Origin: Sulfurimonas sp.
Lineage (GTDB): Bacteria > Campylobacterota > Campylobacteria > Campylobacterales > Sulfurimonadaceae
Reading direction: 5' to 3'
DNA: 64,000 nucleotides
NCBI RefSeq assembly: GCF_028713515.1
Contig: NZ_JAQTOD010000003.1
Coordinates: 1 to 64,000 of the forward strand
Of this stretch, positions 21,919 to 28,405 are shown in pieces (positions within the stretch are counted from its first letter, which is position 1; each line of letters starts with the position of its first letter). Below the pieces are notes generated by a model. That model did not search any database and was not told where the DNA came from. It saw only the letters and a program-made list of their open reading frames with translations. The position numbers and the translations under genes were made by a program.

Positions 21919-23226
21919 ATGCCACTCTCTTCCCTAAAAAAAAGAATCTCATCAACAAATCATTCAGAGATGTTTGGCGAAGTTGTAAAGATTAACGCAA
22001 CCGTCATCACGGGAACTGGGCTGAAAGTCAGCATCAGCGATATGGTAAGGATAGTCTCAAACGACACAGCTCAAGAGATTACAGGAATGATTACAGAGAT
22101 AGACGGTGCTACTTTTTTTATAACACCATTTAGTTTTGTAGAGGGATTTTGTTCAGGCGATAGAGTTTTTCTAGATCAGGCTGGTATGAATATCCCAGTC
22201 GGCGAGGGTCTGCTTGGAAGAGTTGTAGATCCATTTATGCGACCAATTGACGGCAAAGGTCCCATCATCTCAACAAAATTATCTCCAATCATAAAAGCTC
22301 CCATTGCTGCGATGAAGCGAGGAATGATTGATGAAGTTTTTAGTGTTGGAGTAAAGAGCATTGATGGACTCTTAACTTGCGGAAAAGGGCAGAAGCTCGG
22401 TATTTTTGCAGGAAGTGGTGTTGGAAAATCTACTCTAATGGGAATGATTGTAAGAGGAGCTGATGCACCCATAAAGGTAGTTGCGCTTATCGGCGAGAGA
22501 GGAAGAGAAGTTCCTGAGTTTATAGAGAAAAATCTAGGCGGGAATCTAGAAAATACCGTGATAATAGTTGCGACTTCGGATGATTCTCCACTCATGAGAA
22601 AGTATGGTGCGTTTGCTGCGATGAGTGTTGCTGAGTATTTTAAAGATAAAAATTTAGATGTTCTTTTTATTATGGACTCTGTCACAAGGTTTGCTATGGC
22701 TCAGAGGGAAATTGGACTAGCTCTAGGTGAACCACCAACCTCAAAAGGTTATCCACCATCATCCCTAACTCTTCTTCCCCAACTTATGGAGCGAGCAGGG
22801 AAAGAGGAGGGAAAAGGCTCTATTACCGCCTTTTTCACAGTCTTAATTGAGGGAGATGATATGAGTGACCCAATCGCCGATCAGTCTCGTTCTATCTTAG
22901 ATGGACATATTGTCTTGTCTCGTGAAATGACAGATTTTGGAATTTATCCACCTATCCATATACTAAACTCCGCATCAAGGGTTATGAGCGACATTGTAAC
23001 TCCTGAACACCTAAGGGCTATTTTAAAATTTAGAAGACTCTACACGCTCTTGAAAGAGAACGAGGTGCTTATCCGCATTGGAGCGTATCAGAAAGGGAGT
23101 GATCCTGAATTAGATGAAGCGATAAATAAAAAAAAGGAAATGGAAGAGTTTATGACACAAAGCTCAACACTTCAAAATCCATTTCAAGATAGTGTTAATT
23201 CGCTTTTGAGTATAGCTGATAGCTAA
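21919..23226 (+). CDS. fliI: Flagellum-specific ATPase FliI
   Basis: 435 residues, type III export ATPase. Walker A AGSGVGKST (164-172), VVALIGERGREVPEF, Walker B region LFIMDSVTRFAMAQREIGLALGEPP and SITAFFTVLIEGDDMSDPI, the FliI/F1-beta signature, are all present. It energises export of flagellar proteins with FliH and FliJ, which are not in this window. Only fliI is found, coupled to folE. Its stop codon overlaps that of the converging 686-residue protein. Confidence 0.95.
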   Translation: MPLSSLKKRISSTNHSEMFGEVVKINATVITGTGLKVSISDMVRIVSNDTAQEITGMITEIDGATFFITPFSFVEGFCSGDRVFLDQAGMNIPVGEGLLGRVVDPFMRPIDGKGPIISTKLSPIIKAPIAAMKRGMIDEVFSVGVKSIDGLLTCGKGQKLGIFAGSGVGKSTLMGMIVRGADAPIKVVALIGERGREVPEFIEKNLGGNLENTVIIVATSDDSPLMRKYGAFAAMSVAEYFKDKNLDVLFIMDSVTRFAMAQREIGLALGEPPTSKGYPPSSLTLLPQLMERAGKEEGKGSITAFFTVLIEGDDMSDPIADQSRSILDGHIVLSREMTDFGIYPPIHILNSASRVMSDIVTPEHLRAILKFRRLYTLLKENEVLIRIGAYQKGSDPELDEAINKKKEMEEFMTQSSTLQNPFQDSVNSLLSIADS

Positions 23227-25283
23227 TTTTGAGTTATTGCGAGCTTTCGAGCTGAGCAACTCTCATAGCTTCTCATTATTTGAGCTATCTCCAAATCATA
23301 TCCGTAGGTGTCTATATATGTATAAATTATCACCTCTGCACCATCAAAATTTTGTTTCTCTAAAAGCTGCGAAACTCTTGCATAAAAACCAACTTTTATA
23401 AGCTCCTCAACCTTAACTCGTCTCTCTTTTATTTCTGCAAGTTCACCTAATCTACTTTTAATATCTTTTATATTTCCACTCAAAGCAAACTCTTCGCACT
23501 CGCCCATGATAAAAAACCAGTGTTTTTCAAGAAGTACTCCCAACACACTGCCTTTAAGCGAGCTATTTTCATCCAAAATCTCATAGCATAACCTAAAGTT
23601 GTTATTTTGATATGCTTCTTGAAGTTTTTGCGCATTTATATACTCTAGCTTCAATTTTTGCACTCTATTTTCAATCCCAAATGCTGATTCTAGTGCTTCA
23701 ATCCTACTATCCAATAAACTTAGCTCACCACTTTTTATGAAACTCTCAATGCGCTCCAGCTCTATTTCAATCTCAGAACTTAATGTTTTAAAATTTGGAA
23801 TCTCTCTTAATTCTGGATTTGAAGCTATAAGCTGATCTATTTTTTTATAATCTTTATCATTTACTGCTCTTAAAAACTCAATAAAATCCGCGTTGTGAGC
23901 TAAGATTAACTTAACAATATTCCTCTTTGAAGGAACTGCTTTATAGCTACTAAGCAGAGCTTTTGCTTCACTTTTTTCTCCCCTTATAAGTAATTTTTGT
24001 GCACTTAAAAGTGTATCTTTAAAAATCTGTTCTGTTTTTTTATACTCTGTTGTTTCTCTTAATTGTATAAATTTATCAGAAATAAGATAGATAAGTGCGT
24101 ATTTTTCCTCTCTATAAAGCTCTTTAAATCTTGGGTAGTTTTTAAACGCCAAAAACAGCTCTTTAACCTGATTTTTTTTACTCTCCACATCATCATATAT
24201 TTCTAACATCTGTTTTGCTTTTGCAGTGTCATTTTTCTCTAATGCCTTAGTTGCCTCTATATATCTCTTTCTGTAGCGTTCTTCTAGAGTCTTAAATGTT
24301 TGGGAATTCCGAAGCATAGGCTCTTTTGTAACAAGCTCATACGCCTCTTTTATGCAGTTATGAAGAGCTAATGATTTTAGTTTCTCTTCAGTTGGAAGCT
24401 TTATGGTTGAAATTTTGTTATTTTGCAGAAGAGCCACCAAAAAACCATTATCGGCGATATCTATCTTAATTGGTTTTGAGCTAAACTCAATATACTTTTT
24501 TATGACCACTTTTAAATTTTTTATATCAATAATAGAGACAAATTTTGCATCTGTGATTATCATTGCGAAATCTCTGTTTTGCATCATAATAATCTCTTTT
24601 ATAGATGAAAATGTTGTTTTGATAACTCTTTTTGAGTTTGGATTTTCTAGTGAAATTATCTCTATTCCACCATTTTTATCTCCACAAATTAAGTTATTCT
24701 CATCTATAAAAGAGAGTGCAGTTATACGATTGTAAACTATTTTTAGCCTAGCCACTCTGCTACTCATATCAATCACTTCTAGCGTGCCGTCAGAAAAACT
24801 AAGTGCGATATAATTTTTATAAAATGTAAAAAGATTTATATATTTATTGTTACTAAAACTGTGGATAACATTTCGTAGCGGATATAATCTGGATATCAAA
24901 AATTGCTGTTCATATCTATATTTTAAAACTTGTAAATTATTAATTACAACTATTACATATTTTGAAGATGCGTCAAAGCTTAATTTTGAAATTGGGTTAC
25001 TTGCAACAGAGATTGTTTGAATAAGTTCTCTCTTTTTTATGTTGATTATATAAATATATTGATTATCAACAAAAGCAAACAGTTTATGATTTGGACTAAA
25101 GCAAAAAAATTTTGTATCTTGATTTAAAAATTGACTTTTTTTCTCTTTTTTTTCTTGGAATGTGAGAAAGTTATAGAAGTTTATACCATCATTTTTTGTG
25201 CTGTAAACTATATTTTCATCATCCAGGATTGCAAAATCCGTTATATCGGACTTTGCAACTAGATACTCATCTATACCAAACAC
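23223..25283 (-). CDS. Cytoplasmic WD40-like beta-propeller plus 84-residue helical repeats
   Basis: 686 residues, no signal peptide, no membrane segment. Residues 1 to about 295 are short beta blades with WD40-like spacing (FCFSPNHKLFAFVDNQYIYII, LSFSDGTLEVIDMSSR, LICGDKNGGIEIIS). From 330 the sequence is helical and repeats with an 84-residue period: units start near F330, Y414, F498 and G582, with a half unit before (about 294-329). Each unit has a helix hairpin, a KNxxKxL turn and an LRE...F end. The layout, propeller then alpha-solenoid, recalls coat and IFT proteins. Function unknown; a scaffold role is inference. Its stop overlaps that of fliI. Confidence 0.8.
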   Translation of the reverse strand: MFGIDEYLVAKSDITDFAILDDENIVYSTKNDGINFYNFLTFQEKKEKKSQFLNQDTKFFCFSPNHKLFAFVDNQYIYIINIKKRELIQTISVASNPISKLSFDASSKYVIVVINNLQVLKYRYEQQFLISRLYPLRNVIHSFSNNKYINLFTFYKNYIALSFSDGTLEVIDMSSRVARLKIVYNRITALSFIDENNLICGDKNGGIEIISLENPNSKRVIKTTFSSIKEIIMMQNRDFAMIITDAKFVSIIDIKNLKVVIKKYIEFSSKPIKIDIADNGFLVALLQNNKISTIKLPTEEKLKSLALHNCIKEAYELVTKEPMLRNSQTFKTLEERYRKRYIEATKALEKNDTAKAKQMLEIYDDVESKKNQVKELFLAFKNYPRFKELYREEKYALIYLISDKFIQLRETTEYKKTEQIFKDTLLSAQKLLIRGEKSEAKALLSSYKAVPSKRNIVKLILAHNADFIEFLRAVNDKDYKKIDQLIASNPELREIPNFKTLSSEIEIELERIESFIKSGELSLLDSRIEALESAFGIENRVQKLKLEYINAQKLQEAYQNNNFRLCYEILDENSSLKGSVLGVLLEKHWFFIMGECEEFALSGNIKDIKSRLGELAEIKERRVKVEELIKVGFYARVSQLLEKQNFDGAEVIIYTYIDTYGYDLEIAQIMRSYESCSARKLAITQN

Positions 25284-25292
25284 GAAATAAAA

Positions 25293-26267
25293 TTATTTAT
25301 CTTTTTCTTCTACTTCTGAGTAAGCTTTCATAAGGTGTTTACCCATTTGACGCTCAAATTCATCCCAGTTGTGGTAATCTTTCAACTCCGCAGATGCATC
25401 CGGCTTAACTTCATAACTCTCTTTACCATCAGCATAACCTTTTTGTGCCCACTTTAAAACAACTTTAAAATAGTTTAAAAATGGATCAATAGTTTTATGC
25501 ATTTCACCTGATGGGCCATGTCCTGGAACATAAAGGTCATATTTTTTGTAACCTTTTTTTTGAGCAAGGATATCTTCAAGAAGCTCAATATTTCCATATA
25601 TACTAGAGCTTTCATCCATACCTCCAAGACGACAATCCATTAGGTTATCACCTAACCATAATGTATTAGACTCAACATGCTCTATTAGGATGTCTGTATC
25701 AGTGTGTGCTCGTTCAGGATGAAAAACTCTAAAAGTTTGCCCATCAACTTTAAGAACATCTCCATCTTTTAAGACTTTTGTCGGGAAAGGAAACGGTCCA
25801 TCTGTGCCTTTTAAATTTTTTGAAAGACCCTCTAGAATGTTATACCATACTCTAGCTTCCCCATCTTTTGCAGCCTTAATCATATTTGGATGAGCATAGC
25901 TCTGCGCGTTAGGAAATGCTTCTTGAAATGCCTTGCCAGCAAACCAATGATCCCCATGTTTATGTGTATTTAAAATAGCAAGTACTGGTTTTTTTGTAAC
26001 TTTTTTATATTCAGCGACAATTTTTTTACCAACATTATAGTTCCCACCTGGGTCAATTACAATAGTACCGTTTTTACCCTCTACAAATGAGGGATTATTC
26101 ATGAAACCTTCATTCTCAACACTTGGATTCTCTGGCGGGCCATGCATAATCCATACATTTTTAGTAACTTTTTTAAACTTGAACTCTCCAAGCTTTCCAA
26201 GCGTAAAAGCATTTAGTGATAGCGAAAGTGCAATTACTGCTGTGATTATAAAACTAATTTTTTTCAT
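25293..26267 (-). CDS. Exported metallo-beta-lactamase-fold hydrolase, SoxH-like paralogue
   Basis: 324 residues with a signal peptide (to about residue 20, LNA). Metal ligands are in NTHKHGDHWFAG, the later HTDTD, WLGDNLMD and YVPGHGPSG. Related in fold, length and periplasmic location to the protein at 1583-2560, and like it opens with a WxMHGPPENPSVENEGFMNN-type segment (there WCFFGALEAPTKENAGNMSN). It lies 650 bases downstream of the SQR-like gene on the same strand. Substrate unknown; persulfide, thiol-ester or other hydrolase activity are possibilities for this fold. Confidence 0.75.
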   Translation of the reverse strand: MKKISFIITAVIALSLSLNAFTLGKLGEFKFKKVTKNVWIMHGPPENPSVENEGFMNNPSFVEGKNGTIVIDPGGNYNVGKKIVAEYKKVTKKPVLAILNTHKHGDHWFAGKAFQEAFPNAQSYAHPNMIKAAKDGEARVWYNILEGLSKNLKGTDGPFPFPTKVLKDGDVLKVDGQTFRVFHPERAHTDTDILIEHVESNTLWLGDNLMDCRLGGMDESSSIYGNIELLEDILAQKKGYKKYDLYVPGHGPSGEMHKTIDPFLNYFKVVLKWAQKGYADGKESYEVKPDASAELKDYHNWDEFERQMGKHLMKAYSEVEEKDK

Positions 26268-26348
26268 CTTTTTCCTATTTGTGTTAATTTTATGAGCCTA
26301 ATTTTAATACCAAATTTAACTAACTGAATATATAAAATATGCTCCAAG

Positions 26349-26359
26349 GATTCTACATT
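26349..26359 (-). promoter_or_regulatory. Motif shared by two leftward sulfur-related genes (copy 1)
   Basis: The minus strand reads AATGTAGAATC, 82 bases before the start of the exported hydrolase gene. The same 11 bases lie 103 bases before the SQR-like gene (28508-28518). It could be part of a shared operator or promoter. The remainder of 26268-26459 holds divergent promoters and no gene. Confidence 0.3.
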
Positions 26360-26459
26360 TTTAAGCCTTAAGGGCGTTTTAAATAAAAATTCATCCTACT
26401 GTTTTTATACAACTAAATTTTTATGTTATGATTTGCTTATCTAAAAATGGAGATTAAAT

Positions 26460-26792
26460 ATGAGCAGTAGTATCAAAAAAACTGGATTATTTTTTGGATC
26501 GATTGTGGCAATTTCGCTTTTAACATTTAGTGGATGCGCAAGGATAGGAAATGATTTTAATTCACACCGTGTAGAGCAAATTAAAGTTGATGAAACATCT
26601 CAAAGTGATATTGTTTTAATGTTTGGGCAACCTTGGCGCAAGGGAATGGAAAATGGCATCACAATGTGGACTTATGGTCGCTACACTTATCGTCTTATAG
26701 GCGAAACAGACACTAAAGATCTTGTTATTAAGTTTAATAAAGATGGAAAAGTAAGTTCATACACTTTTAATTCAACTGTGAATGAAAAATAG
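26460..26792 (+). CDS. BamE/SmpA-like lipoprotein
   Basis: 110 residues. Lipobox FSGC (Cys about 26) after a hydrophobic segment, so a lipoprotein. The mature part resembles the SmpA/OmlA fold: VDETSQSDIVLMFGQPWRKG parallels the BamE turn ...vxxLLGxP, then MWTYG..TYRL and a final LVIKFNKDGKVSSYTF strand. BamE-type proteins sit in the outer-membrane assembly machinery, but many small lipoproteins share the fold, so a Bam role is not assured. Divergent from the exported hydrolase. Confidence 0.75.
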   Translation: MSSSIKKTGLFFGSIVAISLLTFSGCARIGNDFNSHRVEQIKVDETSQSDIVLMFGQPWRKGMENGITMWTYGRYTYRLIGETDTKDLVIKFNKDGKVSSYTFNSTVNEK

Positions 26793-26814
26793 TTTGTCTG
26801 TAAAAATTAAATAA

Positions 26815-26838
26815 GAAGCCCTATAAATATAAGGCTTC
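26815..26838. terminator. Hairpin between converging genes
   Basis: GAAGCC (26815-26820) pairs with GGCTTC (26833-26838); the stem extends inward to about 10 pairs with one mismatch. On the minus strand TTATTTAATTTTT follows, so it would best end the leftward SQR-like transcript, and may serve both directions. Confidence 0.55.
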
Positions 26839-26923
26839 CTAAAAAGATTTACAAACTACTAACGCAGATATCTCGCGAAATAAAAAAGTTGCTCTATCTC
26901 TTTGCAGAGAATAGAGTCTTAAG

Positions 26924-28405
26924 TTATGCTCTACCTGAGAGCATTCCATACATAGTCATTGGTTTAAGTATATAAACTTTTAGTAACCACATTATCCATC
27001 TCTCTTTAGTTGGATCAAGAGGGAACGATGGAGTTGGTTTTTTAGTCCAATTGAACTCAGCCATCATAACTGTTCCAATGCCTGTAATTAATGGGCAAAC
27101 AGTATATCCATCATACTTAGATGTAGGCTCTTTGCCACCCATCGCAGAAATAACATTGTTGACCAATACCTTATATTGCTTACGAACTGAACCACCTGTT
27201 TTACCCATCGGAACACCGACAACATCACCTAAAGACCAAACATTTGGAAAGAAAGAAGATTTTAAAGTCTCTTTGTCAACAGTAACAAAACCAGGTCCCT
27301 GCGAACCAAGCTCCGATTGACCTACGACATCTGGAGCTTTCATGGGCGGAGAAACATGCATAAAGTCATATTTAACCTGTACTGGCTCACTAACTTTTAC
27401 CTCTTTTACGATTTTATCGCCCATCTCGTCTTCAACTTCTGTCTTCTCCATTCTCCATTTATCGAATGTTGCCGTTTTAGTTGCTGTATCTACTGCTACT
27501 AAATTGTGTTTATAGTTCCATTTAAAGCCTCTTGCCTCAAACTGCTTAACAATTGCATCATGATATTCAGGAACACCAAACATTTTTCCACCATCTGGAT
27601 AGAGAGTTAACTCAACCTTATCACGAACACCAGCTTCTACAAGACGAGCATGAGTTAAATACATAATTTTCTTAGGTGCACCACCACATTTAATAGGTGT
27701 ATTAGGCTCAGTAAATAGTGCTTGTAGTTTATCAGGGCCTTTGTGAGCTTTTGCCTTAGCGACTAACTCCTGAATACCAGCCCATGTTGCTACTGCACCA
27801 TCTTGAAAGTAGATTGAGTGCAATCCATCTTTAGTGATTGTGTTTTTAGTTGCGGCATTATCCTTGCCATTTGAAGTAATCACGCCATCAAGACCTTTAA
27901 TTGCCGCATAATTAAGCATAACACCAGTCGCAATAATAAGCTGATCGTAAACTATTACCTGTGTTCCATCAACAGTTACTTTGTTGTTTTTTGGATCAAA
28001 AGCAGTAACACTACCCTTAATTAGTTTTACGCCCTTAGGTACGAATTCATCTCTATTATATTGAATATCATCAATCTTCCAAATTCCACCAGCTACAAGA
28101 GTTTGCCCAGGCTGATAAGATACGGATAGCGGATCAGGTTCAATTACAGTAATATCTGCATTGTTAATTGAGTTGTTAAGGCGAGCTGCTGTACTCATTC
28201 CGCCTAAACCACCACCAACTATAACTATCTTTCCTTTAACATCGGAAGAAGCGCTAACTTCAGATGTTCCAATTGTAGTACCCGCTATTACAGATGCAGC
28301 CAATGGAGAGAGCGTTAAATATTTTAAAGCTTCACGACGAGACATAATCTCAGGATGTTTATCAACTTCTTTTAAAATCTCTTCTAAAATTTGATTTTTG
28401 CTCAT
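26924..28405 (-). CDS. sqr: Sulfide:quinone oxidoreductase-like FAD protein, Tat-exported
   Basis: 493 residues. A Tat-type signal, SRREALKYL (22-30) with a hydrophobic stretch, precedes the FAD site VIVGGGLGGM (61-70). SQR-like features are the YQPGQTLVAGG segment (98-107), Cys240 in PIKCGGAPKK and Cys437 in YTVCPLIT, the pair expected to form the active-site polysulfide bridge, a second dinucleotide region and WSLGDVVGVPMGKTGGS. The last 30 residues (WIMWLLKVYILKP) are amphipathic and may anchor it to the membrane. It oxidises sulfide and reduces quinone. A flavocytochrome c flavoprotein is less likely because no cytochrome partner gene is adjacent. Confidence 0.8.
   Translation of the reverse strand: MSKNQILEEILKEVDKHPEIMSRREALKYLTLSPLAASVIAGTTIGTSEVSASSDVKGKIVIVGGGLGGMSTAARLNNSINNADITVIEPDPLSVSYQPGQTLVAGGIWKIDDIQYNRDEFVPKGVKLIKGSVTAFDPKNNKVTVDGTQVIVYDQLIIATGVMLNYAAIKGLDGVITSNGKDNAATKNTITKDGLHSIYFQDGAVATWAGIQELVAKAKAHKGPDKLQALFTEPNTPIKCGGAPKKIMYLTHARLVEAGVRDKVELTLYPDGGKMFGVPEYHDAIVKQFEARGFKWNYKHNLVAVDTATKTATFDKWRMEKTEVEDEMGDKIVKEVKVSEPVQVKYDFMHVSPPMKAPDVVGQSELGSQGPGFVTVDKETLKSSFFPNVWSLGDVVGVPMGKTGGSVRKQYKVLVNNVISAMGGKEPTSKYDGYTVCPLITGIGTVMMAEFNWTKKPTPSFPLDPTKERWIMWLLKVYILKPMTMYGMLSGRA

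Follow-up and report, generated by a model that had tools for sequence, protein, structure and literature searches.

A propeller–solenoid protein family of Campylobacterota with a predicted 84-residue helical repeat and a possible role in signalling

A survey of 225 proteomes published in 2010 reported, in the parts of the article available, a propeller-then-solenoid protein layout only in eukaryotes and in bacteria of the Planctomycetes-Verrucomicrobia-Lentisphaerae group (PVC) (PMC2799638). As the survey found no other prokaryotes with this layout, the layout was cited in support of a possible contribution of PVC bacteria to the origin of eukaryotic membranes (PMC2799638). A separate survey of prokaryotic WD40 proteins described an enrichment in Cyanobacteria and Planctomycetes, along with hints of signal-transduction neighbourhoods for Cyanobacteria (PMC5587647); the available parts of its text do not mention Epsilonproteobacteria, Helicobacter, TPR or response regulators. 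A literature search found no paper describing the propeller-solenoid family presented here.

The gene investigated is located in a stretch of 64,000 nucleotides from Sulfurimonas sp., referred to here as the window. It has the following features:

23223..25283, minus strand: whole gene, 686 codons with a GTG start and a TAG stop; the 686 amino acids are encoded by 23226-25283
24393..25283, minus strand: predicted seven-bladed WD40-type beta-propeller with 28 strands, residues 1-297 (AlphaFold2, VIA-align, weak matches to the Pfam WD40 group and profile matches to WD40 chains in the PDB)
24303..24392, minus strand: half unit of two helices opening the solenoid, residues 298-327 (helices predicted at residues 299-307 and 311-320; likeness in sequence judged by eye)
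24051..24302, minus strand: solenoid unit 1, 84 aa, residues 328-411 (self-comparison, AlphaFold2, profile-profile comparison)
23799..24050, minus strand: solenoid unit 2, 84 aa, residues 412-495 (same evidence as unit 1)
23547..23798, minus strand: solenoid unit 3, 84 aa, residues 496-579 (same evidence as unit 1)
23295..23546, minus strand: solenoid unit 4, 84 aa, residues 580-663 (clear in structure, weak in sequence)
23226..23294, minus strand: last predicted helix (to ~677) and end of the protein, without the RDSW..SDIIM tail of the orthologues, residues 664-686 (alignment, AlphaFold2)

The gene starts at the same alignment column as its orthologues, and the encoded protein matches a profile of the whole family with an E-value of 7e-204. 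An earlier reading of the window, made from the letters alone (the sequence-only reading), had placed the gene tail to tail with fliI and had noted the lack of a signal peptide; the two genes are indeed convergent, with stop codons overlapping by 4 bp, and no signal peptide was visible when the N terminus was read by eye. The region between recJ and the family gene (25293-28405) encodes a protein of the metallo-beta-lactamase fold, which has an apparent signal peptide, as well as a flavoprotein resembling sulfide:quinone oxidoreductase.

The window gene is predicted to encode a propeller of seven blades, followed by a rod built from helical repeats of 84 residues each. AlphaFold2, using an input alignment of 62 orthologues, yielded a full-length model with a mean pLDDT of 87.3 and a pTM of 0.77, in which residues 5-295 form 28 strands arranged as seven four-stranded blades in a closed ring, and helices from the end of the propeller (residue 298) to residue 677 form an alpha-solenoid with complete repeats. 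When compared to closed seven-bladed WD40 domains (G-beta, LIS1 and TLE6), the modelled propeller gave VIA-align Z-scores of 24-26 and an rmsd of ~2.9 over ~280 residues, in line with the earlier assignment of residues 1-295 to WD40-type blades. No Pfam model reached its curated cut-off in the window protein, the best match from the WD40 group scoring 37.9 bits against a cut-off of 305, and no NCBIfam family matched it; its relatives match the WD40-group models with E-values down to 1e-44. The predicted fold is of the WD40 type, with a sequence that has drifted.

In the solenoid, which gave a pLDDT of 89.5 when modelled alone, the long predicted helices 328-349, 412-433, 496-518 and 580-601 start exactly 84 residues apart. 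An ungapped self-comparison of residues 300-686 scored +59 at an offset of 84 and +10 at 168, far above the best of 500 shuffles (-18), with all other offsets at or below -95. Profile-profile comparisons with HHalign gave 96.9% for units 1 and 2, 96.0% for units 1 and 3 and 96.2% for units 2 and 3, while unit 4 gave 62.7% with unit 2, 11% with unit 1 and 1.3% with unit 3, against a maximum of 4.6% in 60 column-shuffled control comparisons. The exact, gapless 84-residue repeat that had been proposed from the sequence therefore stands for units 1-3, beyond what shuffled sequences give; unit 4 keeps the spacing and the fold, but its sequence similarity is weak. The half unit preceding unit 1 was likened to the repeat by eye and by its helix pattern only.

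Nothing in Pfam matched the solenoid of the window protein. TPR models gave no match in this protein, TPR_19 matched weakly in 6 of 63 orthologues, and the period is 84 rather than 34. A Foldseek search of the PDB with the solenoid alone returned no match with E < 0.02, the best weak structural match being the TPR-type P58IPK (Foldseek E 0.026, VIA Z 7-8). The highest VIA Z-score in any row was 8.1 with an rmsd of 18, which is not above the background for helical models, and COPII Sec31 (Z 6.8-6.9) was tied with unrelated rows; no Foldseek match of the solenoid reached E<=0.001. A sequence-based search for solved structures related to the solenoid retrieved only designed helical constructs and MukF (E 0.07-0.35), which were rejected.

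Full-length relatives, mostly of ~700 aa, are found in many families of Campylobacterota and often number two or three per genome, and sequence comparisons indicate an undescribed family that is spread across the phylum and has paralogues. Several sampled genomes of four genera (g10, g27, g29 and g30) had no family match at all. The family profile matched 276 genomes, a number that cannot serve as a family count or prevalence since many of the matches cover the propeller only, in unrelated WD40 proteins. One member of the genus (genome G097, locus L033) encodes many extra WD40 proteins of ~1000-1500 aa whose similarity to the family is confined to the propeller. A pattern scan with the alignment of the window's own branch, which reaches close relatives only, returned only Campylobacterota or unnamed MAGs. 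A viral or plasmid origin was rejected, with no relative found in IMG/VR (pattern scan) or PLSDB (tblastn), as was a role in anti-phage defence, with the window protein unmatched in PADLOC and one paralogue matching a HEAT-ARM model in the propeller region only.

In a phylogenetic tree of the family (midpoint-rooted, with the root serving for drawing only), three groups were distinguished: branch A (~80 members), which includes the window copy and is found on the recJ side, facing fliI; branch B (~39 members), in which the family gene (FAM) follows ilvA and precedes ppx or ilvB; and a deep, divergent remainder. The housekeeping neighbours differ accordingly, with the arrangements recJ-FAM, ilvA-FAM-ppx, minD-X-FAM-dprA and polA-FAM-mobA, and others with ispG. 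In several other branch-A genomes the family gene directly follows recJ, with a gap of 11-25 bp. Family f2 (L174, L176, L178 and L180) has kept the order minD, a gene for a ~340-380-aa protein, the family gene, dprA and (ruvX); the ~340-380-aa protein has one apparent membrane span and is a candidate partner. That fliI is a common tail-to-tail neighbour in branch A could suggest a flagellum-associated factor, but in other branches the family genes have unrelated neighbours and fliI is absent, and being convergent, fliI and the family gene share no transcript and do not belong to the same operon; we consider this the least probable of the explanations discussed here.

In the divergent remainder, the family gene is often tightly coupled to REC-PAS, REC, PAS or kinase genes. 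A REC-PAS gene overlaps it by 22 bp in most of the f10 lineage, gaps of 3-6 bp are found elsewhere, and REC genes are located 4-21 bp upstream in some loci. When family members were clustered at >35% identity, and neighbours were defined as genes on the same strand within 100 bp, REC, PAS or kinase neighbours were present for half or more of the members in 9 of 24 clusters, the rate among background genes of the same loci being 5% (binomial p 1e-6); this test counts related clusters as independent and uses loci fetched as family holders rather than a random sample of genes. The survey by cluster showed no signalling neighbour in branch A or branch B. Two f10 genomes (G318, L203:743-2889; G437, L205:1414-3566) carry the family gene as two separate frames downstream of an intact REC-PAS gene, reflecting either recent loss or sequencing error, and in G006 a second, tandem family copy (L050:9383-11218) is broken by a TAG stop and in fragments. 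The family-wide context, for which the sequence-only reading had called for a survey of genome neighbours, points to two-component/PAS signalling and not to coat or IFT function.

Most of the signalling neighbours end in a common C-terminal domain of ~125 aa with the motif IPLPSxIID..D.I...N..F...DWK. This is a divergent PAS-like domain, at the limit of what Pfam identifies as PAS. It was not found in the other ORFs of the family loci, was not seen in the REC neighbours of loci L056 and L066, and gave no significant match among solved structures. A profile search of 397 genomes found the domain in 22, every one of them with a family gene; of the 25 matches, 23 directly adjoin the family gene or stand in tandem before or after it. 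Two matches in genome G449 are exceptions, one being ~5 kb away in the same signalling island and the other elsewhere. In the same genome, a REC-PAS protein that matches the domain weakly is encoded 6 bp ahead of a short member of the family. This member (L290:9592-10911) consists of 440 aa with a propeller and approximately one repeat, overlaps the gene of a cache-domain histidine kinase by 77 bp, and is located in a dense signalling island beside its REC-PAS partner.

As the first partner-domain profile had been trained on neighbours of the family, a fair test of the linkage called for new data. Contig C56 of genome G294, outside the training set, carries a third family copy preceded by two partner genes in tandem, with 3 bp between them, and a search of 60 genomes with a rebuilt profile gave six strong matches (E < 1e-12) in five fresh genomes (G490, G488, G458, G456 and G487), each directly upstream of a family gene, either singly or in tandem. 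Weak cross-matches of the profile occur above ~E 1e-7, and since the domain is a divergent PAS, part of the similarity could be general PAS similarity. The partner domain is almost confined to neighbours of family genes, and in the signalling branches the family gene is closely linked to a REC/PAS protein carrying it. The front parts of these proteins differ and include degenerate receivers as well as PAS parts, some of them soluble and others apparently membrane-bound, as would be expected if the terminal domain is their common output.

On balance, we favour the family being a cytoplasmic signalling scaffold that acts, in the signalling branches, with the REC/PAS protein encoded by the adjacent gene, the window copy being a derived member; the scaffold character proposed earlier for the 686-aa protein is supported. 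In the signalling branches, the scaffold would work with its neighbour, a protein with a receiver, a PAS sensor or both, in some cases membrane-bound, that ends in the PAS-like domain. Once phosphorylated or bound to a ligand, the REC/PAS part would bring about a change in this terminal domain, which may dock on the propeller or the solenoid. The receiver or sensor would control the docking, with the signal presumably running from partner to scaffold, and the scaffold would gather or release putative client proteins. A broader and more tentative proposal, to which we give somewhat less than even weight, is that Campylobacterota possess an undescribed two-protein system in which a receiver/PAS sensor signals via a dedicated PAS-like domain to a scaffold of coat-like layout, the layout having arisen outside PVC for signalling and the family having subsequently expanded into housekeeping operons, where members such as the window copy would act as stand-alone scaffolds. 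The most numerous branches are found in such operons without the partner domain, as would suit a scaffold with a general assembly or chaperone-like function for cytoplasmic complexes and no tie to signalling, with the sensory partner representing a side use in some branches. However, the housekeeping neighbours vary between branches, so that none of them is a common client, and among neighbour domains the sensory partner alone recurs in distant branches; a general scaffold is a rather unlikely, though substantial, alternative to the signalling scaffold. A large unannotated scaffold family now has a ready candidate binding partner.

The window genome holds a single family copy, the second paralogue being missing, and domain profile searches revealed no recognisable partner domain either in the neighbourhood or elsewhere in this genome; the window copy must thus use another partner, possibly in trans. 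Alignment showed that its C terminus (23223-23300) has also lost the tail seen in its orthologues, which reads RDSW..SDIIM in branch A and has a related W-containing counterpart in branch B. This element is well conserved among the orthologues and could be a binding motif. The end branch of the window copy in the tree is 0.97, compared to 0.11-0.37 in its nearest orthologues. Its identity to the orthologue at locus L103 is 42%, whereas the fliI and recJ of the two loci are 86% and 70% identical; between L103 and L105, the corresponding values are 70% for the family protein, 90% for fliI and 76% for recJ. Judging from these comparisons, the window copy evolves faster than its neighbouring genes. 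The long end branch, the low identity, the lost tail and the missing paralogue would all fit a gene decaying in this lineage, i.e. a functional family of which the window copy is losing its role. The 686 codons are nevertheless open, the start is conserved, the repeat register is kept, and a complete propeller and repeats are predicted at high confidence, leaving decay possible but improbable. We read the window copy as a derived branch-A scaffold working without a sensory partner.

Compared to known systems, the family most resembles in layout the PVC membrane-coat-like proteins, which are likewise bacterial, are 500-1500 aa long and occur in several copies per genome (PMC2799638). The predicted structure of the window protein shows an N-terminal beta-propeller and C-terminal stacked alpha-helix pairs within a length of 686 aa, i.e. 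the features for which that survey had searched (propeller, solenoid, 500-1500 aa). The likeness is one of layout, and the family differs in its occurrence in Campylobacterota, its 84-residue repeat and its signalling neighbourhood. Eukaryotic coat and IFT subunits (clathrin heavy chain, IFT-A, WDR11 and COPI beta') share the domain order and the WD40-type propeller, whereas the family has a single short solenoid of ~380 residues. IFT-A, clathrin and WDR11 were among the top full-length Foldseek matches, but with TM-scores of only 0.16-0.4, the whole chains failing to superpose, and no sequence relationship to coat or IFT proteins was found outside the propeller. Of the coat/IFT likeness in the sequence-only reading, the domain order thus holds, while the low TM-scores, the solenoid without a close PDB match and the missing sequence relationship speak against a closer kinship. 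The match to coat proteins is of layout only, and a shared layout makes no coat. A membrane-coat or vesicle/compartment scaffold, as the domain order might suggest, is very unlikely given these scores, a solenoid that resembles those of coats no more than other helical repeats, the lack of a sequence match and a neighbourhood pointing to signalling; a signalling scaffold is more likely, as relatives are often found beside a matching signal-receiving protein. With TPR and related alpha-solenoids the family has in common a stack of helix hairpins, although its unit comprises 84 residues and approximately six helices instead of 34 residues and two helices, and with the prokaryotic WD40 proteins, as described in the available parts of PMC5587647, it shares the seven-bladed WD40-type propeller. 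The presence of the layout in another phylum, tied to receiver/PAS proteins in many lineages, makes domain order a weaker marker of coat ancestry, and if the proposed signalling system is real, the propeller-solenoid layout would have arisen in bacteria outside PVC for signalling rather than for membranes.
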